Shown: in pieces, positions 1 through 25,427 of the stretch
Layout: each line of letters starts with the position of its first letter
How positions within the stretch are numbered: the stretch's first letter is position 1
IMG/VR virus record: IMGVR_UViG_3300037189_017819
Location: 1 to 27,966 of that record
Reading direction: 5' to 3' (one strand)
Origin: a virus
Length of the DNA stretch: 27,966 bases
Program-made: the position numbers and the translations under genes
The notes under the pieces: model-generated
What the model saw: the letters and a program-made list of their open reading frames with translations, nothing else
Databases searched by the model: none
What the model was told of the DNA's origin: nothing

Positions 1-135
1 CCAGGTGCCGCAAATAATCAAACACAGAAGTCAGGCTATGTAAATAACACTAACACGTTTACAGATGCTGTTGGCTCCACACACAATGAATTGCAACCGT
101 TGAGTAAAATTTTAACACCGAAAGCAGATAATTAA
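1..135 (+). CDS. C-terminal end of upstream gene, possibly neck protein (partial)
   Basis: An open frame enters from the left edge in phase with base 1 and runs 44 codons to a TAA at 133-135. The visible tail is polar and rich in Asn and Thr and ends KILTPKADN. The stop overlaps the ATG of the gp15 homologue by one base (TAATG), which suggests a shared operon and translational coupling. In T4 and its relatives the gene before gp15 is usually gp14, a neck protein, so that is the likeliest identity. This rests on gene order only, because I do not recognise the 44 residues themselves. Confidence 0.55.
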   Translation, partial: PGAANNQTQKSGYVNNTNTFTDAVGSTHNELQPLSKILTPKADN

Positions 136-1514
136 TGCCAGTACAGTTCAACTACGATGGGCAAATACGCCGATTCGTTATACAGTTTGTTCGTATGCTG
201 TCCAACTTCCAAGTGGAGTTTGGACAGAATGCTGTGGGCCAACGTACCTTACAAACTGTTCCAGTCTACTACGGAGATGCTAGTCGCCAGGCATCAATGA
301 TCTTACGCAACAACAGTGAAAACGCACTCAACGCTGTGCCGGCCATGGCTGTTTATATTTCCGGTCTGGCATACGAACAAGACAGATTACAAAATCCCTA
401 TCACGAAGGTGTACTCAGAGTAAGAGAACAAGTTTACAATCAAGATGCACAGGTACACACTGGTCAGCAAGATGGTATCTATACTGTAGAACGACTGATG
501 CCTGCTCCGTACAAACTAACAATGAAACTGGATATATGGACCAGTAACACTGAACAGAAACAACAACTACTTGAACAGATATTGCCCCTGTTTAATCCCG
601 GATTAGAAATACAAAGTACCGATAATTATGTTGACTGGACTAGCCTAAGTGTAGTATTATTAAAAGATGTTAGTTATTCAAACAGAAGTATTCCGGTGGG
701 TGCCGAGGAAAACATTGATATCGCTACGCTGACCTTTGAACTTCCTATATGGCTTACACTACCTGCCAAAGTTAAAAAGATGGGTGTTGTTGCACAAATT
801 ATTGCCAGCATCTATGATGCCAATGGTGACCTGAGTCCCGATGTTATCAACACAGGCGAAGGTCTAATGAGTCAACAACGCTTTACTCCAATGAACTATG
901 AAATTATCTATGTAGGAAACACGTTAACTTTATATTATAACAACGTTACTCCCACCAACAACGGCACTAAAATGCCATGGCGTAATTTGATTAACCTATA
1001 CGGCAAACTAACAAGTGGTATCAGTCAGGTGCGACTACAATTCGAATATCCAGACGGTGTACATGAAATTGTAGGAACTGTGGCACAAAATCCTATAGAT
1101 GAAACACAGTTATTGTTTACACCTTTCCCACAAACATTACCAGCCAATACCTTACAAGCAGTTGATGCCATTATTGATCCCAGGACTGTTACTGTGGATG
1201 ATAGTATCATCAATCCCAACTTGGGCACACGCTATTTGATTTTAAATCCAATTGGAGATGTTAATAGCGAAAGTGCTGTAGCATGGGCAGGTCCCCCAGG
1301 AACCAACCTGGTTGCTCGTGCTGGAGATATCATTGAATTCTCCCTTGATACCTTTGGGGCTCCGTATTGGCATGTGAGTTTTGATAGCCAGGAATCGGGT
1401 GTTCAATACGTTACCAATTTAAATACCACAACGCAATATCGCTGGACTGGCGAAGCCTGGGTCAAGAGTTTCGAAGGCGTATACCTCAGTGGGTTCTGGA
1501 GTCTGGTACTGTAA
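135..1514 (+). CDS. gp15: Tail sheath stabiliser and completion protein, T4 gp15-like, with C-terminal extension
   Basis: Homologues of T4 gp15 form a ring at the top of the contractile tail that caps tube and sheath and joins the tail to the neck. Residues 1-235 carry the pattern I know from aquatic T4-like phages: YDGQIRRFVIQF near the start, TLQTVPVYYGDASRQ at 38-52, ILRNNSENALNAVP at 56-69, DIWTSNTEQKQQLLEQ at 133-148, LFNPGLEIQSTDNYVDWTSL at 152-171, and PAKVKKMGVV at 210-219. The protein is 459 aa against 272 in T4. The extra ~200 residues form a separate C-terminal region ending in a hairpin-like YRWTGEAWV segment; I believe related phages have a similar extension, from memory. The start overlaps the upstream stop. 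Only a weak ribosome binding site precedes it, consistent with coupling. Confidence 0.9.
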   Translation: MPVQFNYDGQIRRFVIQFVRMLSNFQVEFGQNAVGQRTLQTVPVYYGDASRQASMILRNNSENALNAVPAMAVYISGLAYEQDRLQNPYHEGVLRVREQVYNQDAQVHTGQQDGIYTVERLMPAPYKLTMKLDIWTSNTEQKQQLLEQILPLFNPGLEIQSTDNYVDWTSLSVVLLKDVSYSNRSIPVGAEENIDIATLTFELPIWLTLPAKVKKMGVVAQIIASIYDANGDLSPDVINTGEGLMSQQRFTPMNYEIIYVGNTLTLYYNNVTPTNNGTKMPWRNLINLYGKLTSGISQVRLQFEYPDGVHEIVGTVAQNPIDETQLLFTPFPQTLPANTLQAVDAIIDPRTVTVDDSIINPNLGTRYLILNPIGDVNSESAVAWAGPPGTNLVARAGDIIEFSLDTFGAPYWHVSFDSQESGVQYVTNLNTTTQYRWTGEAWVKSFEGVYLSGFWSLVL

Positions 1515-2711: not shown

Positions 2712-5639
2712 TTATCCACGCAGTACCAATCTAGACCCACTGTTGGGAACAGGACCACTGGTTAGTGTACCATAAAATCCAACTATCAGTGTTGCAAAAC
2801 TCTGCCCAGAAGTATTATTTGACAATCCAAAAACTCTGGTTCCGTCGGTGCCGACATACATGGCATTTCCTCTAGGATCAGCTGTGAAGAGAGCCGAGAT
2901 GGCACCATACCCAGCGTTGGTGTTGTTGAAAACTGATGTAACACTAGATGATGTCGATCTTATTAATGTTAGTGTAAAGTTCGGTGTTGCGGCGTTGAGA
3001 CTCTGTGCAACTCGTTTTGGAGTGCCAAATAGATAGCCGCGTTGTGGCCATAAATTCAAATCTGCACGGTAGTCCAGGGCGCCAAAATTTGGAATTTGAT
3101 TTGTAAAATAGTTATTTGCAAGATTTACGACGCCAGTAGACGCTGTTGCACCCTGAAATAGCGTTACATTGCCTGTGTACAAAAGGCCTGAGAAAAATTG
3201 TTGGCTACTAAAGGTTGTTGCAATATACCATAATCCGCCACGTGCATCTCCGGACAATTGAGATAATGGAGAGCTGGCACTATAATCGTACCATAGATTA
3301 CTTCCACCGATCATGTTTGTGACATTATTGGTGCTTGGTGCCAGCACATTTGAAAATCTTGCGCCAGTGTTGGCACTAAATTGATTGATGTAAATTGTTT
3401 GTGTGGATACAGTTCCGGCCTGATTCACAAGGAATACGTTTCCGGTGTAGTCTGGCACCGGTGTTCCAAGACCAGTGGCAACAAGAGTTGCTGTTCCAGG
3501 AGTCATAACGTTGGCAACTCCAATTTCACCTGTTGCTTGGTCCACAACCACACACCAGGGTCGCACGTCCCAATTTCTATTGGTAGCATATACGTTTTTG
3601 TTATCTATACCCAGATATGCTGTGCCATTGGCCCGGGTAATGCTGTTGGTATAATACGTGGCTACACTGGTTATGGTGTCAACCTTGCCCACACCGTTAC
3701 TGGTTGAAACCCATATGGTACGATTACCGTCATATACCATGTCATAAAAACCTAAGGCCACGTTACCTGTGGCCGAGTTTACTCTTTGTAAAGGGGTTCC
3801 GCCGAGGCCTCCCGAAACACTCAATGTATATAGGCCCAATCCGCTGCAGATCCACATGTTGTCGCCAATGATAAAAGTTTTTGTGGAGTACGACGCATTG
3901 GAAAATGCTGTTGAACTTACTGCTGTTTGTGTTCCGCCAGTATACTGCCTGCCCAATCCTTGAAATGAGTATTCACTGCCACCGTTCATGGGCAGTACAA
4001 AACATTCAGTGCTTGTACTGGTAGTGACGTTGCTGCTGGGCCACCCACCAACAGGATCCACGTTGGCATATATTGTGTCTCCGGTGGTGCCAATTGGTCT
4101 CATTACGCCAAAATTAAAAGCACGACCATATGGTAGTGTAGTAGCACCGTGATCTGTAGCTATAGACGAAATTGGAACTTTGAGTCCAGTGAGATCCCAG
4201 GGATATGTCAAGCTGGTATGATAACTTGCCAGGTGGCCAAAATTGCTCGAGTCACTGTTAGTGACTGTTACAGTTGAATCAAAAAAAGGCATTCTACCTT
4301 TGTTTGTGACTGGAAGCATGCCAATGGCGCCGTCTTTGCCAGCCAGGTTAAGATAACCGTTGGGCAGTCTCGGAAAGGCAAATGATCCACCATTGGCTGG
4401 GGCAGCGGTGTTGTCCGATGGTGTGCCAATGGTTAGACTTGACGTCCAGGCATAACAAGGACTACCACCACTGAAAAGAGTTTGATTACTGTATGTCACT
4501 GTGCCGGTGACTGTGAATGTAAGATTATTGGCACTGGTGTCAGTAATATAAGCATCGGAACTGGCCACACGCAATAATAATTGTGTGTTTGCGATATTGG
4601 TAGCTGGCGTCCAGTTATTTTGATAATAGGTGTTTGTGGTGTAGTTTGCAGTATATAAAACCGTTCCTTTTAGTATGCGTAGATTTGTGATAAATCCATC
4701 AAAGAAAAATAAACCGCCGTCGGCCGCACCGACTGTGGTTGGCAAACTGTTGGTAGGAATGTTGGAAACCAATGCTGTTGTACCGAACAGTAGGCCATTT
4801 AAAAACACTCGAACTGTGGTTCCGTCGGACGTTACAGCGAAATTACTCCACCGACCGGGTATAACAGGGGTACCATTGGTAATGGTAGTTACTGAGCCGC
4901 TGAGATTGTACTGAAAAACAAAAAATCCGTTTTGCAAGAATACTGCCCAGTTTGTATTGGCACCAGATGACAGATTCCCTTGGCCAACAATAACCTGTTG
5001 CGTTGCCTTGTTAGCAACGTTGGGCAGGAACCATCCTTCCACTGTGAAAATACCCCCTGCGCCACCTAATTGTAAGTTTGCAGCTGCTGGAGTGCTGATA
5101 AAACCAGTAGACCCATCAAATCGTAAGCTGCCGCCCGGTGCATATAAACTAGCAGTATCTTCAGGGGCCACACGTTCAAATTCCATAATTGCCGACCACA
5201 GGCCCGGGGTGTTATTGATCCATGGCCATATCATGATATGTCGTGTCGTGGCGCTTACAATAATAAAACAGTTTGCTGGATCAAACCCGTGAACATATAC
5301 GCCGCCGCCGGTAAATGACTGATTGATTGGATAGTGTTGGCTGTTTGTTATTGCGGCACTGCTCCACACCTCGCAGGTGCTGGTGTAAAACACCAGTTTA
5401 ATCAGGTCCCATGTTATTATAAAATATTTAAAAGTGACTCCGTCAGCATTGAGGCAACGATATACCTTGGTTATTAACGGACTAAAAATACTTGTAGCTA
5501 CAGTATCATATGCAGTCCACCCAAGACTGGTTATTGCAGAATCCACGGCATTGAGAAGACCTGCTGCCCCAAGCTCAGACTGAGCTGTGATTATTTTGCT
5601 GTTATTGCCGACGGTGTACTGTGCTGTTGTTATTGGCAT
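2712..5639 (-). CDS. Modular tail-fibre adhesin: head, LamG domain, propeller-like C-terminus (paralogue 4)
   Basis: This is the last of four paralogous fibre proteins in the window (975 aa). Residues 1-165 form the shared head: AVDSAITSLGWTAYD at 31-45, KVYRCLNADGVTFKY at 58-72, FYTSTCE at 84-90, and TPGLWSAIMEFERVAPED at 144-161. Residues ~166-392 are a LamG/concanavalin-A-like domain with RFDGSTGF, an FTVEGWF strand and SDGTTVRVFLNG at 271-282. From ~394 (PCYAWTSSLTIGTP) the shared C-terminal region begins. It has propeller-like blades such as DGNRTIWVSTSNGVGKVD (637-654) and YLGIDNKNVYA (675-685), and ends SRLVLRG. LamG folds usually bind carbohydrates, so a receptor-binding role at the virion tip is likely. 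A possible promoter (GATAAATT) and an AGAGAA ribosome binding site precede the ATG. No signal peptide or membrane segment is evident. Confidence 0.8.
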   Translation of the reverse strand: MPITTAQYTVGNNSKIITAQSELGAAGLLNAVDSAITSLGWTAYDTVATSIFSPLITKVYRCLNADGVTFKYFIITWDLIKLVFYTSTCEVWSSAAITNSQHYPINQSFTGGGVYVHGFDPANCFIIVSATTRHIMIWPWINNTPGLWSAIMEFERVAPEDTASLYAPGGSLRFDGSTGFISTPAAANLQLGGAGGIFTVEGWFLPNVANKATQQVIVGQGNLSSGANTNWAVFLQNGFFVFQYNLSGSVTTITNGTPVIPGRWSNFAVTSDGTTVRVFLNGLLFGTTALVSNIPTNSLPTTVGAADGGLFFFDGFITNLRILKGTVLYTANYTTNTYYQNNWTPATNIANTQLLLRVASSDAYITDTSANNLTFTVTGTVTYSNQTLFSGGSPCYAWTSSLTIGTPSDNTAAPANGGSFAFPRLPNGYLNLAGKDGAIGMLPVTNKGRMPFFDSTVTVTNSDSSNFGHLASYHTSLTYPWDLTGLKVPISSIATDHGATTLPYGRAFNFGVMRPIGTTGDTIYANVDPVGGWPSSNVTTSTSTECFVLPMNGGSEYSFQGLGRQYTGGTQTAVSSTAFSNASYSTKTFIIGDNMWICSGLGLYTLSVSGGLGGTPLQRVNSATGNVALGFYDMVYDGNRTIWVSTSNGVGKVDTITSVATYYTNSITRANGTAYLGIDNKNVYATNRNWDVRPWCVVVDQATGEIGVANVMTPGTATLVATGLGTPVPDYTGNVFLVNQAGTVSTQTIYINQFSANTGARFSNVLAPSTNNVTNMIGGSNLWYDYSASSPLSQLSGDARGGLWYIATTFSSQQFFSGLLYTGNVTLFQGATASTGVVNLANNYFTNQIPNFGALDYRADLNLWPQRGYLFGTPKRVAQSLNAATPNFTLTLIRSTSSSVTSVFNNTNAGYGAISALFTADPRGNAMYVGTDGTRVFGLSNNTSGQSFATLIVGFYGTLTSGPVPNSGSRLVLRG
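4465..5145 (-). other. LamG (concanavalin A-like) cassette in paralogue 4
   Basis: This segment codes for residues ~166-392 of the 975-aa fibre. It starts at SLRFDGSTGF and ends just before PCYAWTSS. The strand order and the core SDGTTVRVFLNG, followed by DGFITNLRILKG, are typical of LamG_3-type lectin folds. The 757-aa paralogue lacks the same interval, which defines the cassette edges. Confidence 0.75.
5428..5471. repeat. 44-bp direct repeat, copy A (shared with 7732-7775)
   Basis: Bases 5428-5471 are identical to 7732-7775. Both copies code for the same head-domain stretch around KVYRCLNADGVTFK in two adjacent paralogues, and lie 2304 bp apart. The identity covers third codon positions, so it suggests recent duplication or gene conversion and not selection on the protein alone. 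Confidence 0.85.
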
Positions 5640-5661
5640 AAAAATTCTCTGTTATATATAC

Positions 5662-5669
5662 AATTTATC
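5662..5669 (-). promoter_or_regulatory. Weak late-promoter candidate (GATAAATT)
   Basis: The minus strand reads GATAAATT in the 36-bp gap, 23 nt upstream of the ATG at 5639. It differs from NATAAATA at the last base. Position and spacing are like those of the better promoters in this block, but the motif alone is weak. Confidence 0.35.
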
Positions 5670-5675
5670 AAAAAT

Positions 5676-7949
5676 TTAACCTTTTACTATTAATCTGCTG
5701 GTTGGCTGCGCATTTGATGTGGTAGTGCTGTAGATTCCGTTAATTGCTAGTATAATATTCTGAGAACCTGAACTAAAAAAGCCCGAAAATAGTTGACTAC
5801 CATTGGTAGTCAGGCTACAACTGTTTTGAAATGGAGTTTGTAGTAGTCCACCAGTCAGTGCTGTGTTGATTGAAGCGACTGCAAGACCATTAGCGCCATT
5901 TGTCGGAACTCCCAGTGGATCAAACAAACAAATAAAAGCCCCAATCGTGGTGGTTGCTGTCCCTTGCATGCCCGGGCGCTTAGGAGACCAAAAGTGCATT
6001 CCGCGGAAGGGAATAACATTGATGTCTCCCTTGAAATCAATTGAAGCACATTGGGTACTTGTTCCAGCTGTGGTTGTGGTGTACGTGCCGCCAGACGAAG
6101 TGAAACTAACATAGCTAGTAGTTTGAAGATTGCTAGTGAAGTATTCATCTATTCTGTGATTATTAGAACTAGGTTGGGCACAGATAAACCACACACGGTT
6201 ACTGATGTAATCATACACAAATGCATCTCCACCGTATGACAAAACAGCACCTCGCGGGGGGACCCGTGTGGTTCTTATTCCTGTGTTGGCATCAAACAAG
6301 GACATGTAAGTTGTCACGGATGTGGAAACAGCCGGTGTGGTTGCAGCAAAAACGTTACCTCGATAGTCTGGTACCGGGGTTCCATATTGACTGGCAGTGG
6401 CCAATAACGTGCCAGCATGTACCAGTACGTTGCTTTGGAATGTTAAACTATTACGATCAAACACAGCAATACTAGGAGCAGTATTGGCTGTGCGATTGAC
6501 CGCATAAATGTTTTTGTTATCTATACCAAGGTAACTACATCCATTGGCTCTGGTGTTGGCGCTGGTATAAAATGTAGTGGCATAAGTGACAGTATCTACG
6601 GACACAATGCCGTTGCCAGTGGATGACCAAACTGTGCGATTTCCGTCAAATAAAATATCCTGGAAAGGGCCAACTGCCGCGGGCCCACCTGTCGTAGAAA
6701 CACGCAGGGTAGAACGGTTAGTAACAGCAGTGGTACTTGGAAGTCTTGTGGCGGTACCAGATTGTGGTGCAGTGAAAATGCCGTAGTTAGAAATAGACCA
6801 CATGGTGTCACCAACATTGATTACCTTGATTGCGGCTGCGCTAGAATCTGAAACGCTGGCTTGATCAGATGGAGATGCTGCACTTACGGTGTACATAGCA
6901 GATTGATAATGAGGAACTAAGAGCTGCGCTGCACTTTCATATCCGCCGTTGATTGGCAATAATAAACACTCGGTATTGGTACTGGTGCTAACGTTGCCAC
7001 TGGGCCATCCTCCTGTGTTGTCAATATTGGCCAATATGGTATCTGCGGCTTGACCAATTGAGGAAGTGATGCCAAAGTTAAAGGCCTGGCCGAACGGTGT
7101 GTATTGATCCAATCGATCAACGGAAAAAGAGGATAGTAATTGTTTGCCAGTTCCGCCTCGGGCAGCAATAAAATCCCACCCGTAATTATTTGAATATCGA
7201 GAGTAGCTGCCAAGATGTCCGGCTATTGGATCACCAGTGACAACAGTGTTGGTGCCAGTGGCAAACAAGGGATTGACTGGTGGAAACATTCCTCGATTGG
7301 TCACAGGAACATAAAACTGAGTGGCCTGTGCTCCTGTTCTTCCATCTAATAGTCTAGGAAAACAAAACATAGCACGACCGGCTCCGCTGGTGCCTTGCAC
7401 AGCCCAGGGTGTGCCAATGTTTACACTACTGGTCCAGGCAAAACACGGCGTAGGTGATGTGGGCACAGAAGCCAAATCTTCTGGCGCTACTCGCTCAAAC
7501 TCCATGACTGCTGTCCACAGGCCCGGTTGACGATTAATAAAAGGCCAAATCATAACATGCCGAGTTGATGCCGACAAGATAAAATAACAGTCATAGATGT
7601 CATAGCCCTGAGCAAATCCGCCGGCATTTGTGTATGATTCATTTGTTGGAGTGCCAGTACCAGTGCTCCAGCTCTCACAGGTGCTGGTATAGAAGAATAA
7701 TTTAACTGTGTCCCACCTGATGATTAAAAACTTAAAAGTGACTCCGTCAGCATTGAGGCAACGATATACCTTGGTAACAATAGGATTAAAAAGTGTAGTC
7801 CCAATGGTATCAAATGCAGTCCACCCCAATTCAGTTATTGCAGAGTCCACGGCATTGATAATATTCGTAGAACCATTTCCAAATTCATTAGAAATTCTAA
7901 TGAATTTGGTTCCACCATTGGTTGTGTAATTTGTTATTTGTACGGTCAT
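5676..7949 (-). CDS. Modular tail-fibre adhesin lacking the LamG domain (paralogue 3)
   Basis: At 757 aa this is the short member of the four-paralogue family. Residues 1-158 carry the head: AVDSAITELGWTAFD, KVYRCLNADGVTFKF, FFYTSTCE and QPGLWTAVMEFERVAPED. The head then passes through a ten-residue linker (ASVPTSPTPC) straight into FAWTSSVNIGTP, the start of the shared C-terminal region. The LamG domain of the other three is therefore missing at a clean boundary. The C-terminal part has the family's propeller-like segments, DGNRTVWSSTGNGIVSVD and YLGIDNKNIYAVNR, the late KGDINVIPFRG motif, and ends SRLIVKG. There is no frameshift, so it looks functional. It follows the 161-aa gene by 20 bp with an AGAGAT ribosome binding site and no promoter, so it is probably co-transcribed. 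It may bind a different ligand or act as a spacer fibre. Confidence 0.75.
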   Translation of the reverse strand: MTVQITNYTTNGGTKFIRISNEFGNGSTNIINAVDSAITELGWTAFDTIGTTLFNPIVTKVYRCLNADGVTFKFLIIRWDTVKLFFYTSTCESWSTGTGTPTNESYTNAGGFAQGYDIYDCYFILSASTRHVMIWPFINRQPGLWTAVMEFERVAPEDLASVPTSPTPCFAWTSSVNIGTPWAVQGTSGAGRAMFCFPRLLDGRTGAQATQFYVPVTNRGMFPPVNPLFATGTNTVVTGDPIAGHLGSYSRYSNNYGWDFIAARGGTGKQLLSSFSVDRLDQYTPFGQAFNFGITSSIGQAADTILANIDNTGGWPSGNVSTSTNTECLLLPINGGYESAAQLLVPHYQSAMYTVSAASPSDQASVSDSSAAAIKVINVGDTMWSISNYGIFTAPQSGTATRLPSTTAVTNRSTLRVSTTGGPAAVGPFQDILFDGNRTVWSSTGNGIVSVDTVTYATTFYTSANTRANGCSYLGIDNKNIYAVNRTANTAPSIAVFDRNSLTFQSNVLVHAGTLLATASQYGTPVPDYRGNVFAATTPAVSTSVTTYMSLFDANTGIRTTRVPPRGAVLSYGGDAFVYDYISNRVWFICAQPSSNNHRIDEYFTSNLQTTSYVSFTSSGGTYTTTTAGTSTQCASIDFKGDINVIPFRGMHFWSPKRPGMQGTATTTIGAFICLFDPLGVPTNGANGLAVASINTALTGGLLQTPFQNSCSLTTNGSQLFSGFFSSGSQNIILAINGIYSTTTSNAQPTSRLIVKG
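7449..7475 (-). other. LamG-less junction in paralogue 3
   Basis: Here the head (ending ERVAPEDLA) joins the C-terminal region (starting PCFAWTSS) through a short Ser/Thr/Pro linker. The three relatives have a ~230-residue LamG cassette at this position. The join is in frame with no visible remnant. Confidence 0.7.
7732..7775. repeat. 44-bp direct repeat, copy B (shared with 5428-5471)
   Basis: This copy is identical over 44 bases to 5428-5471 and lies in the head domain of the 757-aa paralogue. Recombination between the copies would keep frame and swap everything downstream of the head. Confidence 0.85.
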
Positions 7950-7969
7950 TGATAATCTCTACAATATAG

Positions 7970-8455
7970 TTAAGTCCAAGATTCAATCTTGCCAGTCAAT
8001 CCGCCGCCACCGCCACCTTCACCAGTTGTGACAGCGGCTAATCCACCTTTGCCCACAACATAAACACCTGTGGTGGTGTAACTTTGCCCCAAACTTTGGT
8101 ACATGTTTCCAAAACTATCTATCACCGGTGTGTTACCAAAATTAATAGCTCCAAACACACTTGAATTACTGAATTGAATATTGGCACCTGTTATGTAAAA
8201 GGTTCTGATTTTGCCAAGATTTGATGTATTTCGTACGGTAGAAAATTGGGATTGATCGACTACTGCGTAGTCCACAAAAACATTAGAACTGACACTGGTC
8301 ACAAAAGGAACAATGTTTTGATTGAACACCGATGCTGTGTTGGCAGTTGTCACAGTCTTGGCAGTGATGTTTATGCCCAAGGTTCTTGTAGGTAATGTTC
8401 TAACGCTAGCTAGATCAAGCACTGCCATCACATTACCGTAACTCAGAGCGGCCAT
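7970..8455 (-). CDS. Small uncharacterised protein between fibre paralogues, glycine tract near the C-terminus
   Basis: I do not recognise this 161-aa protein. It is rich in Ser, Thr, Val and Asn, looks all-beta, and has no signal peptide, membrane segment or Cys. Near the end it carries GEGGGGGGLTGKIESWT, a short polyglycine run that recalls the glycine-rich adhesins upstream. Its ATG sits one base after the TAA of the 976-aa paralogue (GGCTAATATG) with AAAGGGC as ribosome binding site, so it is translationally coupled to that fibre. The coupling suggests a partner role, such as a fibre tip, trimerisation aid or assembly chaperone. This is inference from position only. Confidence 0.6.
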   Translation of the reverse strand: MAALSYGNVMAVLDLASVRTLPTRTLGINITAKTVTTANTASVFNQNIVPFVTSVSSNVFVDYAVVDQSQFSTVRNTSNLGKIRTFYITGANIQFSNSSVFGAINFGNTPVIDSFGNMYQSLGQSYTTTGVYVVGKGGLAAVTTGEGGGGGGLTGKIESWT

Positions 8456-8456
8456 A

Positions 8457-11387
8457 TTAGCCCTTTAACAACAGTCGGCTGGTTGCGGCGCCAAGTGCGG
8501 TACCTGGATTGTACAGCCCAGATTGTACGTAAACATTATTATTAACAGTCTGCGGAGAACTAAATGAATGGAATATGTGTATACCATTGGTAGTTGCCCA
8601 ATTACTTTGTCCAGTTGGGCGTTCCAATATACTGATACCTGGATTATTAGTACTTATAAACAAGGGATTACCTTCTGCTTTACCGACTTGGGCGCATAGA
8701 CTGACCAGATATGAATAAGGTTGATTTGATGCAGATCTAATGTCAAACCCAGGCTTTTTGTAACCAATGATATGTTGACCTCTATAAGGTATCAGTGTCA
8801 TGTCGCCGCGTTGATCTGCTGGGCCGGTGGTGCCGTAAAAATTTGTTTGGACCAGACCAACTGTTGTAGTGATAGCGGTCTGGCTTAGCTGAAGAATGGC
8901 TAGATTGCCAGTGGTAGAAATCTCATGAACCTGAAAGTTACTACCAGCAGGATGAGAAGTAAAGATGAAGGATCTTGGAATTCCATTCCAACCAATTGGG
9001 TCGTAAAAAGTGTTTACTCCGTAATTTTGTGTGCCAGTACCGGAACCAATACTTTGTCCTACATAAGCCCAGGCTTGTCCGGTGTTTGACTGAAATTGCG
9101 TTTGAAACTGAGTTTGCGCTGAGGTAGTTCCTGGCACTTGCCCCACTATAACATTGCCCAGGTAGTCCGGCTGTGGTGTACCCCAACTTGATGCCACAGT
9201 AAATGCTGTGTTTCCATTAAAGCTATTGCCAAACCATACATTGCCTGTTGCTCGATCAATGGTATAAATCTGTGCCTTGGTGTTGGCAAGTCTTGATACA
9301 GCATAAACGTTTTTGTTGTCTATGCCCAGATACCCACAACCATTGGCAATGGTCTGATTACTGGTAAAATAACTTGTGGTAAAGGTGTTGGCGTCCATGC
9401 GTACTACACCATTGGCCGTTGATCCCCAAATATAACCATTGCCGTCAAACACTATGTCGTACACACCGCCTGGGACAAATGTTCTAACCACAGGTAATTG
9501 AAAACTGCCACCCGATATCTGAAAACTACAGATACTGCCTGAACCAGCTTGATTTTGAGAGTTTCCCATGGCCGTAAAGATTGTGTCCCCGACTGCTATT
9601 GATTTCATTGGCACCATGATTTGTCCGCCGGGCCCAGCACTACTGACATTGACATTTCCCCAAGATAGTGGACTTTGATTGGTGGTAGCTAGTGTTGATG
9701 CACCATCAGCTCCGCCATACATGGGCAATGCCAGACACTCAACCTGCGTGCGGGCTGTGCTGCTCGGCCAACCGTTGGCAATGTCAATATTGGCCAATAT
9801 GGTATCACCGGGTTGACCATTGGTTCTAGCAATTACTCCAAAATTAAATGCACGACCAAATGGTGCAAGAGTCCCGCTGACAGCATCAACACTTATTGAG
9901 CTGGCCGCTGCAGACGCTGTGTTCCATCCATATGGAATAGCATAATAGCTGCCCAACATGCCAGCACTACCGAAAACGGATTCTGCACCGTTGTAGCTGT
10001 AGTTGGCATTTTGAGGCGGCATTGGACCACGATTGGTAACAGCCACATATTGAAATACTGCTCGTAGCCCAATCCCAAGCGCTGCTGTAAATGGCAGTCT
10101 CGGGAATCCAAAAGAATAGTTTGAAAAAGTTCCCACAACCGAACCATTTAAGGGTGTTCCTATAGTGAGACCATTGGTCCAGGCAAAATTGGGATTAGCT
10201 CCACTAAAATAACTAGTTGCATTGAATGCCGGTGTTCCAACGGCCGTGACTGTATAACCATTGGTGCTGGTGTCCACAATGTAGTTGCCCGAACTGGTGA
10301 CTCCCAAGAATAATTGCGTGCCTGTGATTGCGGTACTGCCATACTGTGTGCTATTTGTAGGAACCTGACTTTGAAATGGTATTCCAAAGCCGCTGGTAGC
10401 TAGTGCCGACCCTCTGACTATGCGTAGCTTGGTAATAAGTCCTTGGAAAAAAGTAGAGGCGCCGCCGTTATTGGTACTTCCAATGCCTGTGACAAGAGAG
10501 TTGGTACCGATTGCGTAGGCTGTTGATGTATTAGTTTGCAATATGCCGTTAACAAACATACGCAAGGTAGTGCCATCACTGCTCACCATGACATGGTGCC
10601 ACTGATTAGGCAGTATTGGACTATTTCCAGCAACTGATACCTGTGCACCAGCATTACTGACAGAGGTAAAATTTAATACGCCAGCAGTATTGACTATCCA
10701 GATAAAATTTGAATTGCTTGCCGTCAAGGTGGCGTTGTCTTGAGAAACAATATGTTGGCTTCTAATGCCAGGCGCAAGTGTGGTGAATATCCAGGCTTCA
10801 ATGGTAAACGCCACACCGGCGCCGCCAATGTTCAAGGTAGTAGCAGTATTAGGCACAGTCAAGTAGTCCGTTGTACCGTTGAATTGTATACTTCCGCCTG
10901 GTGAGGTCACAGTATCTTCTGGTGCTATGCGTTCAAATTCCAGGCAACCAGTCCACAGTCCCGGTGTTCCAAGTATAAAGTTCCAGATTACCAGATGTCG
11001 AGCTGATCCATTGATCAAGAAATAACAGTTGACAAGATCGTAGCCCTGATTGAAGGCTCCAAAATTTTGCCAACTTTCGTTTTGTGGTATTTTTGCAAGA
11101 GTGTTCCACACTTCGCAAACACTGGTGGTCAGCATCAACTTGACGGTGTCCCAGCGCATTATCCAGTATTTGAAGGCAACACCATCGGCACAGGGCGATC
11201 GGTAAACTCTGGTTATAATGGGATTGAAAAGTGTGGTGTTTACGCTGTCATAGAGTGTCCAACCCAGGCTGGTGATGGCTGCTTCTACACCAGCGATGAT
11301 ATTGGTACTGCCGTTGCCTAACTCATTGAGAACAACGACTTTTTTAGTGTTTCCACCCGAAGTGTAATTAAATGTTGTGACCGACAT
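8457..11387 (-). CDS. Modular tail-fibre adhesin: head, LamG domain, propeller-like C-terminus (paralogue 2)
   Basis: This 976-aa member has the same plan as its neighbours. The head is at 1-160: NELGNGSTNIIAGVEAAI, SLGWTLYDSV, MRWDTVKL, TPGLWTGCLEFERIAPED. The LamG cassette at ~162-395 has SIQFNGTTDYLTVP, FTIEAWIF, WHHVMVSSDGTTLRMFVNG and GLITKLRIVRG. The C-terminal region from NFAWTNGLTIGTP has the propeller-like DGNGYIWGSTANGVVRMD and YLGIDNKNVYAVSR, then RGDMTLIPYRG, and ends SRLLLKG. The head lacks the TSTCE sequence of its relatives (TTSVCEVW instead), but a Cys is kept. Its start aligns with the other paralogues although there is almost no room for a ribosome binding site after the GCTAAATA motif just upstream. 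A receptor-binding role is inferred. Confidence 0.8.
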   Translation of the reverse strand: MSVTTFNYTSGGNTKKVVVLNELGNGSTNIIAGVEAAITSLGWTLYDSVNTTLFNPIITRVYRSPCADGVAFKYWIMRWDTVKLMLTTSVCEVWNTLAKIPQNESWQNFGAFNQGYDLVNCYFLINGSARHLVIWNFILGTPGLWTGCLEFERIAPEDTVTSPGGSIQFNGTTDYLTVPNTATTLNIGGAGVAFTIEAWIFTTLAPGIRSQHIVSQDNATLTASNSNFIWIVNTAGVLNFTSVSNAGAQVSVAGNSPILPNQWHHVMVSSDGTTLRMFVNGILQTNTSTAYAIGTNSLVTGIGSTNNGGASTFFQGLITKLRIVRGSALATSGFGIPFQSQVPTNSTQYGSTAITGTQLFLGVTSSGNYIVDTSTNGYTVTAVGTPAFNATSYFSGANPNFAWTNGLTIGTPLNGSVVGTFSNYSFGFPRLPFTAALGIGLRAVFQYVAVTNRGPMPPQNANYSYNGAESVFGSAGMLGSYYAIPYGWNTASAAASSISVDAVSGTLAPFGRAFNFGVIARTNGQPGDTILANIDIANGWPSSTARTQVECLALPMYGGADGASTLATTNQSPLSWGNVNVSSAGPGGQIMVPMKSIAVGDTIFTAMGNSQNQAGSGSICSFQISGGSFQLPVVRTFVPGGVYDIVFDGNGYIWGSTANGVVRMDANTFTTSYFTSNQTIANGCGYLGIDNKNVYAVSRLANTKAQIYTIDRATGNVWFGNSFNGNTAFTVASSWGTPQPDYLGNVIVGQVPGTTSAQTQFQTQFQSNTGQAWAYVGQSIGSGTGTQNYGVNTFYDPIGWNGIPRSFIFTSHPAGSNFQVHEISTTGNLAILQLSQTAITTTVGLVQTNFYGTTGPADQRGDMTLIPYRGQHIIGYKKPGFDIRSASNQPYSYLVSLCAQVGKAEGNPLFISTNNPGISILERPTGQSNWATTNGIHIFHSFSSPQTVNNNVYVQSGLYNPGTALGAATSRLLLKG
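10200..10905 (-). other. LamG (concanavalin A-like) cassette in paralogue 2
   Basis: This codes for residues ~162-395 of the 976-aa fibre. The core WHHVMVSSDGTTLRMFVNG is the classic LamG_3 strand pattern: W, H, then V-x-S-x-DG, ending in NG. It ends just before NFAWTNG, the same boundary as in the two other LamG-bearing paralogues. Confidence 0.75.
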
Positions 11388-11392
11388 GTTTG

Positions 11393-11400
11393 TATTTAGC
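11393..11400 (-). promoter_or_regulatory. Late-promoter-like GCTAAATA close to a start codon
   Basis: The minus strand reads GCTAAATA only 6 nt before the ATG at 11387. It keeps TAAATA but has C in place of A in front of it. If used like a T4 late promoter, transcription would begin at or next to the ATG, giving an mRNA with no leader. It may also be chance. Confidence 0.3.
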
Positions 11401-11418
11401 CCTGGCTATTAAGTAGGC

Positions 11419-14406
11419 TTAACCCTTCATTATTATTCTGCCCACATTGGCCCCACTGGTGGTGTTTGCTGTGTAAATTCCGTTGACCACATACACTCTG
11501 GTATCAACGGTGTTGACTGGCCCCCATGTACCAAACATTTGAACACCATTTGTAGTGTTCCACCCGCTGCCCGATACCGGCACGCTAGATAGGGTTCCAG
11601 TTGGACTGTTTCCTGTGCCAATTGGAATGCCAGTGCTGTAGGCATTAAGAGCTGTTCCGCCAACCCAAAGTGGAGATATAAATCTTCCCAAGGCACTGGT
11701 TGTTCCGCCAGTATACTGAACTTGACCGGGACGTTTTGTATGTATAAAATAATGTCCCCTAAAAGGAAATATACTTAAATCTCCTTTGAAATCTGATATC
11801 GACCTAGGAGCCAAACCTCCCTGATAGAAAGCAACGGTGTTGTTGTTAGTTAAAATATTGACTGTGATGCCGGCTTGTGTAAGATTCGCAGTAAAAAGTT
11901 CTACTGTAGTAAATCCTGAAATACCAGGGTTTCCAGTCACCTCAAACAATCTACCAGAAATAAAATCGTAATGTCCTGAATGTCCATAATTGTTTGCACC
12001 GGCGCCAGGGTTTAGTGTACTATTCACAGTGGCAAAAACAGTTCCTGCAGCATTATTTTTCTGCATGTACAGACTGGTTATTAGCGTTGTACCCGCTGTT
12101 TGGAATAAAAATACATTGCCAGTGTAATCTGGCACTGGAGTTCCCCAGGTGCTGGCCACAGTAAATGCTGTGGTGGTTTCTATCGGAGGAGAGCTCCAGG
12201 TCTGTGTTTTATAATTAAATACTAAAACTTGAGGTTTGGTGTTACTGATACGTGTACTAACATAGATATTGGTGCCGTCGATACCCATGTATCCAGCACC
12301 ATTGGCAATGAGTCGACCATCAGGATAAAATACTGTGCTAAAGGTGGTGGGATTCATACGCATGACCCCGTTGGCAGTGGTACCCCAGATAGATCCGTTG
12401 CCGTCAAACACCATGTCAAACACACCAAACGGTATGTTGGCGCGGAAAGTAGGAGTACTAAAATTGCCGGCGGCCTGGCTGATTGTAAAAATTCCCGACC
12501 CAGTATTCGCAGCGGCGGCTACCGAGTTGGCCGACACAAATATAGTATCACCAACAACTACAGCTTTTCCTGGAAACACCGACGGACCAACGTTGGCAAA
12601 CGTATTGCTAAATGTTGACGGATTCCAAATACTGGCATTAATTGTAGTAGTGCCATTGTTTGTCTCGTGTCCACCATTCAGTGGCAATAACAAAGCCGCG
12701 GTATTGGCTCCAGTACTGCTTACCCACCCATTGGTAGAATCAAGGTTAGCAAAACTAGTGTCCTGTGCTCGAATATTTCCCAGGCCCCGGCCTATGCTCA
12801 CATTGTAAATGCGTCCAAAGCCAGCGACGCTGCGTGCACCTAATGGTGTAACTGCTGGGCTCTGTGTTATGGGGGTACCCTGCATGACACTGATTGTGCT
12901 GACTGGACTTTTTGCGGTATCCCAACCGTAGGGAATTTGTATATTAGCGTAACTGGCAAGATGTCCAAAATTTCCATCTCTTGCATTTATGGTAGTTATA
13001 CCTTGCGTGGGCGCACCAGGCGATGCAGTCGATAAAACTGGAGGCATTGGACCGCGATTGGTCACTGATGTGTAGTCAATTGTGCCACTTACGCCAGTGC
13101 CGCCGGCAATGGTTCTGGGACTAGAATATTGTATTGGACTGCCAGGCTCAGCAACGTTAACTATCCCCGATGGTGTTCCCATCTGCAACGAATTGGTCCA
13201 GGCATAACAAGGCATGCCGCCGCTCATAGGTGTTGCGTCATTAAATGCCCCGGCAGTGCCGCCAAACACTAGAGTTAGGTTAAAGTTATTGGGGCTTGAA
13301 TCGAGAAAACGATTACCTGCGGAAGTGACTGTTACCAATAGTTGTGTGCCAGTTACAGCAGTTAACGGAACATAATAGCTAGGTGGCAGGGCTAGAGAAA
13401 ATGTGGCATTGTATAAACATTGGCCTTTTATAATTCTCAGATTTGTTATGTATCCTGGAAAATATCCTGTAGCGACTGCGTTAGAATTAAAATGTGCTAT
13501 ACCTGTTATTATACTAGAAGAAGAATACATGACAGAGAAAGGCGGTAGCGCAACACTTATACCGGCTAGTACACCATTGATAAAGATTCTGATATTTTGC
13601 GAATCATATGATACTGCCACGTGATTCCATTGGTTCAATATTAAACGTGTGTTGTTGGTAGTAAAAGTTACTTGATTGGCTCGTGGACTAGTAGCCCAGG
13701 AGCTCCAGGTTATATCACCACCTGCGGTTATAGACAACTCGTATGTACCTGTGGTTGATCCATTAGATTGCGCTATAATAACTGGAGCACCTCCCGATGG
13801 TGACACAAAACCAGTTGGCAATATCCAAGCTTCTATAGTAAAGTCTCTACCAGCCAGGTTCATGTTGTCGCTGGCGGGCACAGAGCAGAAGTCTGATGTG
13901 CCGTTGAAAAGTAAACTGCCTCCGGGTGCAGTCACAGTATCTTCTGCTGCCACACGTTCAAATTCTAACACCGCAGTCCAGAGTCCGGGATGATTATTGA
14001 TGAAATTCCACAGCATGGCATGACGGTTTGTGGCCGACACTATGATTGAGCTTAACACCAAATCGTAACCTTGTGCAAATGCCCCGGCATTGGTCCAGGA
14101 TTCATTGATGGGTAGTTTACCAATGGTATTCCAAGTTTCACAAGTGCTGGTATAGAAAAATAACTTAACTGTGTCCCAACGTATGATCAGATATTTAAAA
14201 GTGACACCATCAACATTTAATACACGATAGACTCTGGTAACAACAGGATTAAATCCTGCGGCATTTATGCTGTCATACAAACTCCATCCCAATAGTGTCA
14301 GCGCGGTGTTGACGCCAGCAATGATATTGGTTGATCCGTTTCCAAGCTCATTGACGATGTCAATACGGTAACTGTTGGTAGTAAATAAAGTATTTGTAAC
14401 TGCCAT
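11419..14406 (-). CDS. Modular tail-fibre adhesin: head, LamG domain, propeller-like C-terminus (paralogue 1)
   Basis: At 995 aa this is the longest and the first transcribed of the four. Its head (1-158) has NELGNGSTNIIAGVNTAL, RWDTVKLFFYTSTCETW, GYDLVLSSIIVSATNRHAML and HPGLWTAVLEFERVAAED. The LamG cassette (~160-400) has SLLFNGTSDFCSVP, FTIEAWILP, WNHVAVSYDSQNIRIFING and GYITNLRIIKG. The shared C-terminal part from CYAWTNSLQMGTP has DGNGSIWGTTANGVMRMN, MGIDGTNIYVSTR, GTPVPDYTGNVF and KGDLSIFPFRG, and ends GRIIMKG. The ATG follows the stop of the 247-aa gene by one base (GGCTAATATGG), the same junction as at 8451-8462, so it is coupled to that gene. A carbohydrate-binding, host-recognition role is inferred from the LamG fold. 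Confidence 0.8.
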   Translation of the reverse strand: MAVTNTLFTTNSYRIDIVNELGNGSTNIIAGVNTALTLLGWSLYDSINAAGFNPVVTRVYRVLNVDGVTFKYLIIRWDTVKLFFYTSTCETWNTIGKLPINESWTNAGAFAQGYDLVLSSIIVSATNRHAMLWNFINNHPGLWTAVLEFERVAAEDTVTAPGGSLLFNGTSDFCSVPASDNMNLAGRDFTIEAWILPTGFVSPSGGAPVIIAQSNGSTTGTYELSITAGGDITWSSWATSPRANQVTFTTNNTRLILNQWNHVAVSYDSQNIRIFINGVLAGISVALPPFSVMYSSSSIITGIAHFNSNAVATGYFPGYITNLRIIKGQCLYNATFSLALPPSYYVPLTAVTGTQLLVTVTSAGNRFLDSSPNNFNLTLVFGGTAGAFNDATPMSGGMPCYAWTNSLQMGTPSGIVNVAEPGSPIQYSSPRTIAGGTGVSGTIDYTSVTNRGPMPPVLSTASPGAPTQGITTINARDGNFGHLASYANIQIPYGWDTAKSPVSTISVMQGTPITQSPAVTPLGARSVAGFGRIYNVSIGRGLGNIRAQDTSFANLDSTNGWVSSTGANTAALLLPLNGGHETNNGTTTINASIWNPSTFSNTFANVGPSVFPGKAVVVGDTIFVSANSVAAAANTGSGIFTISQAAGNFSTPTFRANIPFGVFDMVFDGNGSIWGTTANGVMRMNPTTFSTVFYPDGRLIANGAGYMGIDGTNIYVSTRISNTKPQVLVFNYKTQTWSSPPIETTTAFTVASTWGTPVPDYTGNVFLFQTAGTTLITSLYMQKNNAAGTVFATVNSTLNPGAGANNYGHSGHYDFISGRLFEVTGNPGISGFTTVELFTANLTQAGITVNILTNNNTVAFYQGGLAPRSISDFKGDLSIFPFRGHYFIHTKRPGQVQYTGGTTSALGRFISPLWVGGTALNAYSTGIPIGTGNSPTGTLSSVPVSGSGWNTTNGVQMFGTWGPVNTVDTRVYVVNGIYTANTTSGANVGRIIMKG
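13215..13930 (-). other. LamG (concanavalin A-like) cassette in paralogue 1
   Basis: This codes for residues ~160-397 of the 995-aa fibre, from SLLFNGTSDF to just before PCYAWTN. The core WNHVAVSYDSQNIRIFING shows the usual LamG hairpin. It has diverged from the cassettes in the other paralogues more than the flanking head and C-terminal segments have, judged by eye. Confidence 0.75.
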
Positions 14407-14407
14407 A

Positions 14408-15151
14408 TTAGCCTAGTTTGATATAAACAATAGTGAGTGCGCCATCTTTGGCACCATTGGCTGTGTTTACATCCACAGTAAAATAATCTGTGGTGCTGGC
14501 CGTGGTGTTCAAAGTGGTAGTCGAAGAATTAAACGACCCCGATGGCAAATTGATTGCGGTAACTGGGTTACCATTTCTATTCAGTGTGATATTAAATGCA
14601 CCAGTGCTTGGTGCTGTACCAGCAGTAAGGTAAGCTGAAATTAGTTGTATGCTGCCTTGCGGATACCAGCGTACTACACCCGGTCCCACGGTAACTGTAC
14701 TGATAAAATTATAAACTTTAACAGCACTGGTAAGGCCGCCGGTTGTGGCCGCTGTGGCCAATGCAGCTGAAATTGTGCTGCTGTTTACTGTGCCGGTGAC
14801 TGTGGTTAATAACCCAGTGGGGCCAATTACCAAGGTACTGGAACCCAAAGTTGACAATGCTAATGCACTGGTGGTAACGTCAGTTTGTAGTGCGGCGCCA
14901 CGGACTCCGCCAATTCTCAGTGTGGTGCCTACATTTAATTCAGCACCAGTGGTAATGCTATTGATACTAAAACTGCCGCCAACTGACAGACTACCACTAA
15001 CTGACAGCGAATTTGCACTGGGATTGAATGTCAATCCCGGACTGCTTAAAACACTTGTAGTCCTACCTTGGGCACTGACATTGAGACCAACGTATAAATT
15101 GGCCTGGTCAGTAACAGCAGGCAGTACTTGAATAGACTGAGCTACCTGCAT
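14408..15151 (-). CDS. Fibre-like virion protein with beta-repeat stalk and C-terminal beta module
   Basis: This 247-aa protein is rich in Ser, Thr, Val and Gly. Residues ~25-125 look like a beta-repeat stalk of the kind seen in trimeric phage fibres (GLTFNPSANSLSVSGSLSV, then LNVGTTLRIGG). The last ~95 residues form a compact beta module with VGPGVVRWYPQGSIQLISAY, FNITLNRNGNPV and DYFTVDV, similar to C-terminal modules I remember from structural proteins of aquatic phages. It probably forms part of a tail fibre or its connector. The gene starts 9 bp after the 1015-aa gene, where the stop codon is part of the ribosome binding site (TAAGGA). It is directly coupled to the first LamG fibre downstream. 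Confidence 0.65.
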   Translation of the reverse strand: MQVAQSIQVLPAVTDQANLYVGLNVSAQGRTTSVLSSPGLTFNPSANSLSVSGSLSVGGSFSINSITTGAELNVGTTLRIGGVRGAALQTDVTTSALALSTLGSSTLVIGPTGLLTTVTGTVNSSTISAALATAATTGGLTSAVKVYNFISTVTVGPGVVRWYPQGSIQLISAYLTAGTAPSTGAFNITLNRNGNPVTAINLPSGSFNSSTTTLNTTASTTDYFTVDVNTANGAKDGALTIVYIKLG

Positions 15152-15160
15152 GACGTGTCC

Positions 15161-18100
15161 TTAAGCCTGTGCTTCTGTCCAACTCAATCGTACCACGCAG
15201 TTGGCCTCTCCTCGTACACTAATATTGGTGGCTACCACGGTCAACACGTCTGGGCCGTCTGGGTACACGCCCACGTTGCCAGAGAGCTGCCCTCCGCCCA
15301 ATATACTGGTACCTAGGTCTCGAATTTCCGTCAAACTTTGTGCAGTTACGTTGTATGCTGTTGCCGGTCCAGGTCCACCCGCAACCGCGGTGGCCTCTGT
15401 TTCTGTGTAAAATGCAAATATGGGTTCGCCGCCTGAAACAGTTGTAGCATTACTGTGGAACTGATACTGTGCGAGACTACTACCACCCACGTTGGTCCAA
15501 CCTGGACGGCTGTTACTGACTGTGGCATTCAAGAATAGCTGTATCAAGAAACTACCATTACTGTAGATACTCATCGAACGCGGAGTCAATTGCATGCGAT
15601 TGACAATTTCTCTGGCTCCGATAAAACCACCAGGAACACCAGTATACACACTAGGAGCACTGCGTAAACTTATGATGGCATTTGATTGGCCGGCAAAAAC
15701 GTTGGCAAATTGTGTCATACCTGTTGTAAATACGAAAGATTTGTCATCATCAAAACCACCGTCCATGATCGCACTGGTACCCCAGTGATTGACCTCTGCA
15801 GCAAATTGTGGAGTGTGATTTTCTACTGCCACTGGAGCTTGTGTATTGGCTGTCCATGCTACAGCAGGACCACCCAGGGGTGCAAATATCAAAGGCTGTG
15901 TGTTTGATAAGAATGGTGCTGTGCTCAGCACCACACTGGTATTGGCCGTATAACTGGCAACAACAGCCTGGTCTGGTATACCTGGACCAATTACTTCCAT
16001 TCCAGCTTGTATGTTGACTGTGTTGGCCACTGTGATAGTTGCTACGTTGGCTGTGTATGTGGCTGTTTGCGTCACACCCGGACTTCCACGCTGACTCAAG
16101 GTGACCTGATTGGTGGCGTAGTTCAAGGACGAATAAGATACAAACTCTTGTGCAAACGAATCTCTCAACACCAATATCCCAGTGGGCGGCCATGTGGTGG
16201 GTATAGTACTCAATGTCATGGCAGTGGCTGTATTGGTCAGATTGGCTGACAATACCGCAGTATTGGAAAAGCTATTGGTCTCATAGCGGCCAGGCAAATT
16301 GCCGGACCGCATGTAAGCAATCTGTTGCACGTTGTTGTTGACCATTCTGTGACAGTAAATCACATCGCCATTGGGTCCGCGGAATCCCCAGCGTATAAAG
16401 CCGGCGCCGTACCAGGAGTAGTCTAGATATAACATCTGCATTTTAGAAAAGTCTTGGCGGAAACCACTGGGACCTGTGCCGTCACAGCGATCAATGTTCC
16501 ATTGACTCTGCGGAACTCTTACGTCTATGGTCTTGCTGATAAGACTGTTGCTGATATTGCCCAGGCCACGATATGTTGGACTCACTGTCAATAACGCATC
16601 ACTTTGGATGTTGATCACACGATATGTCATACCACGTATGACTATGAAGTCATTGGGTTGAAGTTGTTTGGTGAACAAGGTATTACTGCCTATGATACGG
16701 TCGCTGCCCACTGTGGCACTGATAGTTCCAGGCAAAGCTCCGGTGCTGGTGCGGCGCACTGCATAACAGGTTTGTCCGTCATATTCAAAGAAAATGCCGT
16801 TCTGACTGTCAAACAGTCCTGTGCGTACCATGCTACCATACCAGGAATTCATGGCACCACTATACAAACCTGAGGCCGGAGATGCGCTGGGTGCTGTGGC
16901 AGCTGTGTAGGTAAAGCGATAAGGATCCAATACCTGTGTGACGGTGAAGTTGCCATTGTAAGCAGCTTGATCTGCACCAAATATGCTGATTCCCACTCCA
17001 GGAAGAGCTATGTTGTGTTGATCTTTGGTGGTCACTGTGACTGTGGTACCAGAGCTGGTTAAATTATCCAACACAAAATTTGATTTCATGGTGGTTCCAG
17101 TGCTCATCTGTATACCTTTACCGCTTTGGTAACGGAAGTAACGACGAGTTTGACGAATATACTGATTGTTATGACCTTGGCTGTTATGACTGAATCTTAG
17201 ACCTCCGGTCAGCGCACGATGTAGGGTTGCACCTAGGGGTCTTACATACAAGGCTGCGGCCGCGGTGCTAATGGTACCGGTTGGTGTGTTGAGTGTATAG
17301 AAACTAAATGCTCTGGAGTTTGATATTGTAGTAACTACCCAGCTGCCATTGGGCGCAAAACTGGTGGCCGTGGCTCCTACTAGGCCAATTTCGTTGCCTA
17401 CGCTAAGACCATGCTGTATGCTGGTCACCACATTGATCAAGTTGCCTGTGTTGGTTATACCGGTGATACCAATGGCGCTGTTTGAGTACACATTGCTAAA
17501 ATATCCCAAGGTCACACCGGCATTATTGATGCTGCCCGTGGTACCAGTGTAAAAATATTTGCCAGTGTAGGTAAACGTATTAACACTGGGATTGGTGTCG
17601 ATCACATAGGTGCCATCTGCTCCTGCATAGGTAGTATCCAGTATGGTCACGGCGTTGCCCAACAACCAGGGCGAGTTGGCTATTGTGGCAGGAAACACGT
17701 TGGCTGTGTAGGTTCTACTACCGTTGACAGCTGTGATGTCAGTTATGTTAAAGTTGCCAGTGGCTGTGGAATAAAAGGCATAGGGACGATTATTGATCAT
17801 TCCCACCTGTTCCCATTTGGTCTGCTGTGTTGAATATTCAAAGTCTGTGTCGATCAGTGCTGTGGGCGTACTCACACGTAACTTGTTTACTGGATCCAGA
17901 TAAGATTCACTTGGACTAAACTTTTCATCGTACTCATCAACAACAATACTCAACTTGTCAGTTGCGCTTAATGTTGTGGTATTGTAACCAAGAGTAATTG
18001 TGGTAGTTGTTGTCGAACCATCTGCGCTGGTGGCAATAACATAGCTGGTGGCAGTTAGACTTGGATCACTGAAATTGTAGATTACTTGATTGGTAGTAAC

Positions 18101-18208
18101 ATCCGTGATTAAAATCAGTCGTTCACGTGGTATAGCACGTGGAATTACCAAAGTACGTGTACTTGGTATAAATGTGTAATATGTGTCTAGTATAGCTTTT
18201 CTTGCCAT
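15161..18208 (-). CDS. Large virion structural protein, baseplate or fibre-associated
   Basis: This 1015-aa protein resembles a large structural protein conserved in cyanophages and other aquatic T4-like phages. Signature segments are YLDPVNKLRVSTPTALIDTD with FEYSTQQTKWE (~100-135), RTGLFDSQNGIFFEYDGQT, FIVIRGMTYRVINI, and SQWNIDRCDGTGPSGF followed by YLDYSWYGAGFIRWGFRGPN. In between lie two or more copies of a beta module of the HG(L/I)-x-G-x-x-(I/V)-x-(I/L)-x-G type, for example INVVTSIQHGLSVGNEIGLV and VTVTTKDQHNIALPGVGISI. The exact role is unknown to me; baseplate or fibre attachment is likely. It has a matching late promoter (GATAAATA) and a strong TGGAGAAA ribosome binding site, as expected for a structural gene needed in quantity. 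It leads a unit that continues into the 247-aa and 995-aa genes. Confidence 0.75.
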   Translation of the reverse strand: MARKAILDTYYTFIPSTRTLVIPRAIPRERLILITDVTTNQVIYNFSDPSLTATSYVIATSADGSTTTTTITLGYNTTTLSATDKLSIVVDEYDEKFSPSESYLDPVNKLRVSTPTALIDTDFEYSTQQTKWEQVGMINNRPYAFYSTATGNFNITDITAVNGSRTYTANVFPATIANSPWLLGNAVTILDTTYAGADGTYVIDTNPSVNTFTYTGKYFYTGTTGSINNAGVTLGYFSNVYSNSAIGITGITNTGNLINVVTSIQHGLSVGNEIGLVGATATSFAPNGSWVVTTISNSRAFSFYTLNTPTGTISTAAAALYVRPLGATLHRALTGGLRFSHNSQGHNNQYIRQTRRYFRYQSGKGIQMSTGTTMKSNFVLDNLTSSGTTVTVTTKDQHNIALPGVGISIFGADQAAYNGNFTVTQVLDPYRFTYTAATAPSASPASGLYSGAMNSWYGSMVRTGLFDSQNGIFFEYDGQTCYAVRRTSTGALPGTISATVGSDRIIGSNTLFTKQLQPNDFIVIRGMTYRVINIQSDALLTVSPTYRGLGNISNSLISKTIDVRVPQSQWNIDRCDGTGPSGFRQDFSKMQMLYLDYSWYGAGFIRWGFRGPNGDVIYCHRMVNNNVQQIAYMRSGNLPGRYETNSFSNTAVLSANLTNTATAMTLSTIPTTWPPTGILVLRDSFAQEFVSYSSLNYATNQVTLSQRGSPGVTQTATYTANVATITVANTVNIQAGMEVIGPGIPDQAVVASYTANTSVVLSTAPFLSNTQPLIFAPLGGPAVAWTANTQAPVAVENHTPQFAAEVNHWGTSAIMDGGFDDDKSFVFTTGMTQFANVFAGQSNAIISLRSAPSVYTGVPGGFIGAREIVNRMQLTPRSMSIYSNGSFLIQLFLNATVSNSRPGWTNVGGSSLAQYQFHSNATTVSGGEPIFAFYTETEATAVAGGPGPATAYNVTAQSLTEIRDLGTSILGGGQLSGNVGVYPDGPDVLTVVATNISVRGEANCVVRLSWTEAQA

Positions 18209-21135: not shown

Positions 21136-21139
21136 GATG

Positions 21140-24639: not shown

Positions 24640-24648
24640 TGCGGTTCC

Positions 24649-24957: not shown

Positions 24958-24976
24958 TATATTGCCTTGTTTTTAC

Positions 24977-24984
24977 TATTTAGC
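24977..24984 (-). promoter_or_regulatory. Late-promoter-like GCTAAATA before the 102-aa gene
   Basis: The minus strand reads GCTAAATA in the 31-bp gap, 20 nt upstream of the ATG at 24957. The spacing equals that of the two CATAAATA promoters. The motif deviates from NATAAATA by one base, so support comes mostly from position. Confidence 0.4.
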
Positions 24985-24988
24985 TGGA

Positions 24989-25378: not shown

Positions 25379-25409
25379 TTGTTTCTCCTAAAAAGTCTAA
25401 ATTATAGCA

Positions 25410-25417: not shown

Positions 25418-25427
25418 CTTGCAAATC

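Follow-up and report, generated by a model that had tools for sequence, protein, structure and literature searches.

How did a LamG domain come to be present in three of four tandem paralogues of one phage and absent from the fourth, and what might the four proteins do? We addressed these questions in the window, i.e. the whole stretch of 27,966 bp that was analysed, which is the complete IMG/VR record IMGVR_UViG_3300037189_017819 of a phage known from metagenomes only. Our preferred answer, to which we assign a probability of roughly 60%, is that all four genes arose by old tandem duplications of a surface, probably receptor-binding protein, and that the joint between a conserved head and a C-terminal (C) region received a LamG, most likely in a single event. 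The source phage is contractile-tailed and T4-like, as the window encodes a homologue of the T4 tail sheath stabiliser gp15 (Pfam PF16724, E 1.3e-26). The genes around the paralogues are phage structural genes, and in one relative, L058, a match to gp23 is found close to the family gene. The following genes of the window matter for the argument.

135..1514, plus strand: T4 gp15-like tail sheath stabiliser, context gene
2712..5639, minus strand: paralogue 4, 975 aa, with LamG between head and C region
5676..7949, minus strand: paralogue 3, 757 aa, head and C region, no LamG (AlphaFold2 model)
7970..8455, minus strand: 161-aa ORF between paralogues 2 and 3
8457..11387, minus strand: paralogue 2, 976 aa, with LamG between head and C region (AlphaFold2 model)
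11419..14406, minus strand: paralogue 1, 995 aa, with LamG between head and C region
14408..15151, minus strand: 247-aa gene, candidate adaptor, its last ~100 aa being a beta-rich module
15161..18208, minus strand: 1015-aa virion structural protein, upstream context (phrog_5838)

An earlier, sequence-only reading of this DNA had described four tandem paralogues with the same head and C region, and all four ORFs were recovered at the coordinates it gave: these paralogues follow one another in the same orientation on the minus strand, in the order 995, 976, 757 and 975 aa, and share a head of ~158 aa and a C region of ~590 aa. Between copies the heads are 49-64% identical (154-158 aligned aa) and the C regions 32-38%, conservation falling from the head to the C region with the last ~200 aa being least conserved. 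Phage receptor-binding proteins have conserved N-terminal parts, and a conserved head followed by a most variable C-terminal part is their usual pattern.

The 161-aa ORF directly upstream of the LamG-free copy, not mentioned in that reading, has a glycine-rich tail. It was rejected as a broken fifth copy, as it scored 0.1 bits against the C-region profile when shuffled copies reached up to 10.6, as well as a kin of the 247-aa neighbour, to which it shows no likeness; relatives of it were absent from all family loci fetched. Towards one end of the window a NUDIX hydrolase gene (1514-1945, plus strand) overlaps by four bases the end of a minus-strand 246-aa gene of no known function (1942-2682, phrog_30607), and towards the other, at 18799-27965, three large glycine-rich proteins (Gly_rich_2, phrog_2295) are encoded almost consecutively.

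In the three long copies the LamG insert spans from after the last ED of the head to just before a P[CN][YF]AWT motif, the position at which the 757-aa copy has its short joint.

4473..5156, minus strand: LamG insert of the 975-aa copy, aa 162-389, 228 aa (PF13385, E 1e-16, 61.8 bits)
7449..7475, minus strand: nine-residue joint LASVPTSPT of the 757-aa copy, where the others hold LamG
10206..10913, minus strand: LamG insert of the 976-aa copy, aa 159-394, 236 aa (PF13385, E 6e-18, 65.9 bits)
13225..13938, minus strand: LamG insert of the 995-aa copy, aa 157-394, 238 aa (PF13385, E 8e-19, 68.7 bits)

The LamG cassette proposed for three copies is thus confirmed by Laminin_G_3 matches (E 1e-16 to 8e-19), all above the curated cut-off of PF13385 (27.6 bits), and Pfam returned no Laminin_G_3 match in the 757-aa copy. 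Absence of a LamG fold from the insert had been named as grounds for abandoning the idea; for the 976-aa model, Foldseek matched the LamG fold to pentraxin, neurexin and perlecan LG3 with TM-scores of 0.62-0.68 by target length. Apart from LamG, none of the four copies has a significant Pfam or PHROG match. The link of about ten residues described for the 757-aa copy measures nine. The edges, said to be the same in all four copies, agree in position and register, while their literal motifs vary by a residue or two: ERVAPED (975 and 757), ERIAPED (976) and ERVAAED (995) on the head side, and PCYAWTSS (975), PCFAWTSS (757), PNFAWTNG (976) and PCYAWTNS (995) on the C side. Two architectures, with and without LamG, are therefore encoded side by side in one phage, as had been proposed.

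Further family members, gathered by alignment-based scans of IMG/VR, reveal which architecture is the ordinary one. Profile comparison showed a LamG-free joint of a few residues in 20 of 20 relatives from 16 other viral contigs, several of which are near-identical to each other so that fewer independent lineages are represented, and among 20 family members scanned with Pfam LamG was found in three, namely the three window copies. Members of this family hence ordinarily lack LamG, which was gained in the lineage of the window. The description of LamG as missing through modular gain or loss holds with regard to presence and absence at one clean joint but not with regard to polarity, the relatives being LamG-free. 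The nine-residue joint of the 757-aa copy is slightly longer than the joints of these relatives. Other large inserts occur in the family: ~240 aa in the L020-type head (aa ~52-290), ~60-80 aa in the L038/L039 copies, again within the head, and more in the C region among members. It appears that several loops of the head-C scaffold tolerate insertions. Some inserts of the L020 head and the L038/L039 copies consist of repeated GTGY..GDTI-type units.

Most relative contigs carry one copy and four carry two in tandem (L035, L037, L038, L039), all being minimum counts as the contigs are fragments. Searches beyond these contigs were negative: tblastn of the 757-aa protein against 50,697 phage records gave no match, tblastn of the family protein of L009 found no annotated phage relative, and a pattern scan of genome contigs, which relies on short peptide patterns, found no cellular or prophage relative. 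Sequence relatives with solved structures were limited to weak LamG matches (best E 8.5e-4), and no annotated or experimentally established function was found among head-C family members.

The four window copies form one clade with support of 100/100 in the tree of head plus C region, in which 976 pairs with 995 (97/98) and 757 with 975 (84/75); the C-region tree gives the same pairs, 757 with 975 at 91/86 and 976 with 995 at 100/99. The best tree, ((757,975),(976,995)), is in line with the gene order, which suggests two rounds of tandem duplication specific to the lineage of the window. Three data sets that overlap in content each group the three window LamGs as a single clade (98/76, 87/87 and 89; moderate support on long branches), making one gain of LamG the likeliest reading of these trees. 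The 757-aa copy is either a survivor of the original form or the product of a later loss; here the trees tend towards loss, short of proof.

According to the first of these histories to be weighed, LamG was gained once before the duplications and then cleanly lost from the 757-aa copy, a course of events which we hold at close to even odds. It draws on the best trees nesting 757 with 975 inside the LamG-bearing set, on the fit of this branching to the gene order and on the slightly longer joint, a possible excision residue; the tree holding the three LamG copies together nevertheless survives the AU test with p-AU values of 0.13 (head plus C region), 0.144 (C region) and 0.294 (head). That surviving grouping is what would be expected had the 757-aa copy branched before the gain, keeping the original form, with one gain in the ancestor of the other three. 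This second history is tentative and falls clearly below even odds: every outside relative is LamG-free, the window LamGs look like one clade, a single event suffices and the head plus C data do not reject it, but the best trees together with the gene order place 757 with 975.

Improbable, by comparison, is that LamG cassettes recombined between the copies or were acquired independently. The comparison of separate trees, proposed as a check for such cassette exchange, did reveal a difference, the LamG tree pairing 975 with 976 (99/76 and 90/87) against the strong 976 plus 995 pair of the C region, and the 975 plus 976 pairing is rejected by the head plus C data (p-AU 0.013); LamG units are moreover plentiful in neighbouring genes of the relatives as potential donors. 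The LamG data are, however, compatible with the 976 plus 995 pairing (p-AU 0.12), so that exchange is not shown. Identity among the three LamGs (about 36%) is on par with that among the C regions, pointing to LamG and C regions having diverged together and disfavouring a recent transfer. In a search by trees for the LamG donor, the LamGs of the window grouped with a mixture of units from poly-LamG genes and LamGs of other phage proteins, with no donor pinpointed.

We modelled the 757-aa and 976-aa copies as monomers with AlphaFold2, using alignments built from the proteins of the window and its relatives, resulting in models with mean pLDDT values of 68.7 (pTM 0.83) and 66.6 (pTM 0.65), respectively. 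In both, the head lies mostly near pLDDT 80-95, and values drop below 50 over large parts of the middle and of the C-terminal region. The joint, residues 155-160 in the 757-aa copy, is below 50 in both models, suggesting that it is probably flexible. Foldseek related the C region to many beta-propellers (CJ1041C, TM 0.57; BtuG, 0.52-0.54; WDR12, 0.57; by target length), in support of the propeller-like C-terminal region that had been postulated; the C region is thus predicted to hold a beta-propeller, at middling model confidence. Fibre remains a putative label: none of the four copies has a fibre or spike PHROG match, and the monomer model comprises a compact head and a beta-propeller. A full-length structural counterpart of the 757-aa copy, A0A6J5Q945 in BFVD (785 aa; TM 0.80/0.77, 29% identity, E 3.5e-60), is a head-C family member of LamG-free size from an uncultured Caudovirales phage, with no function assigned.

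A beta-propeller behind a lectin domain also recalls enzymes, e.g. sialidases with a ConA-like lectin domain ahead of the propeller, and NanB and NanC, which have this layout, rank first among the PDB structures matched by the 976-aa model. We consider it very improbable that the window proteins are such enzymes: the TM-scores reach only 0.14-0.23 by either length, so that the domain order and not the catalytic site is matched, and a sialidase function was rejected as the Asp boxes and the (F/Y)RIP motif are absent from all 24 members.

That the LamG-free copy is an assembly artefact is hardly credible: misassembly is possible in a metagenomic contig with four tandem paralogues, but contig IMGVR_UViG_3300032304_002290, possibly from the same biological sample, is identical to the window over its entire 20,111 bp with the 757-aa form included, paralogues of 32-64% identity differ too much to be collapsed, and the 757-aa copy has an open frame and a joint like that of LamG-free relatives.

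At every locus examined, including the window, a gene ending in the ~100-aa beta-rich module immediately precedes the family gene. These genes, located at 14408-15151 in the window, at 9518-9994 in L009, at 8651-9622 in L039 and elsewhere in others, have no functional annotation. The upstream protein of L009 begins with a stretch matching tail-fibre and baseplate-wedge PHROGs, and the small upstream protein would be an adaptor or stalk carrying the head-propeller protein. Just upstream of this putative adaptor-adhesin pair, four relatives (L034, L036, L064, L059) have a poly-LamG gene. The two read to both ends encode proteins with 28-30 LamG-matching stretches, the number of domains being lower as one LamG domain may split into several stretches.

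L034/L153, G011:C1:21216-38048: giant poly-LamG gene, 5,610 aa, glycine-rich start
L036/L154, G013:C1:38029-20756: giant poly-LamG gene, 5,757 aa, glycine-rich start

The glycine-rich start of these giant proteins resembles the window proteins at 18799-27965. Between the two contigs some LamG units are near-identical and others far diverged, which suggests swapping of units. L035 has, immediately downstream, a 589-aa gene in which two stretches match LamG. At this locus LamG is thus encoded by a gene of its own in relatives and inside the adhesin in the window phage. A more far-reaching proposal, which we regard as doubtful, is that of a platform in which the adaptor and the head-propeller protein are constant and the lectin shifts between the giant poly-LamG neighbour and the interior of the adhesin, giving combinatorial adhesins with and without lectin on one virion.

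PF13385 LamG/ConA-like domains, the same domain as in the window inserts, are annotated in virion and baseplate wedge proteins of cyanophages, and phage records with a similar LamG numbered 113 and 130, mostly from Synechococcus phages. These cyanophage-type LamGs sit in other proteins, the head-C scaffold occurring in none of the records of that collection. The clustered genes with a common conserved head, a putative assembly domain, recall the tailspike sets of Ackermannviridae such as CBA120, in which several tailspikes are assembled in a branched complex (PMC3184105). PMC8825819 and PMC11414711 describe clustered receptor-binding genes with common N-terminal parts in this family, and the former gives four tailspikes for CBA120; together with the relatives holding two tandem copies, this makes the four paralogues less unusual than the sequence-only reading had stated. 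Ackermannviridae tailspikes have N-terminal segments in common and differ in the remainder, whereas the window proteins are paralogous throughout, have a propeller body, carry one mid-protein module that is either present or absent and have no tailspike-family match among PHROGs. By analogy, the window case would work like such multi-receptor-binding sets, outside the tailspike families. Domain gain and loss in phage receptor-binding proteins is documented and ongoing (PMC10684548); in comparison with that mosaicism, the window case occurs among paralogues of one genome.

Our preferred reading of ancient duplicates with a LamG inserted most likely once includes a model according to which the conserved N-terminal head would serve as a virion-attachment or assembly domain and the diverged C region with its predicted beta-propeller would face the host. 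LamG would have been slotted into the flexible joint between the two and would then have diverged along with the copies hosting it, one copy having kept, or reverted to, the LamG-free form. LamG domains often, though not always, bind glycans, and at the joint LamG may give three of the four copies a second point of contact, with carbohydrates. The virion could display both kinds of head-propeller adhesin together, the longer kind having an additional module for carbohydrate binding. The data above show the paralogy, the module edges, the LamG fold, the LamG-free state of the relatives, the duplication within this lineage and the conservation of the small upstream gene; virion location, attachment through the head, carbohydrate binding and simultaneous incorporation of the copies are what we infer from them.

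As a summary, we describe a protein family whose scaffold is covered by neither a Pfam nor a PHROG model, tolerates large inserts at several loops and was duplicated repeatedly, with up to four copies in the window phage. LamG may be fused into the adhesin or borne by an adjacent giant gene, and the presence of the same scaffold with and without the lectin in one genome provides a natural comparison of the contribution of LamG to adsorption.
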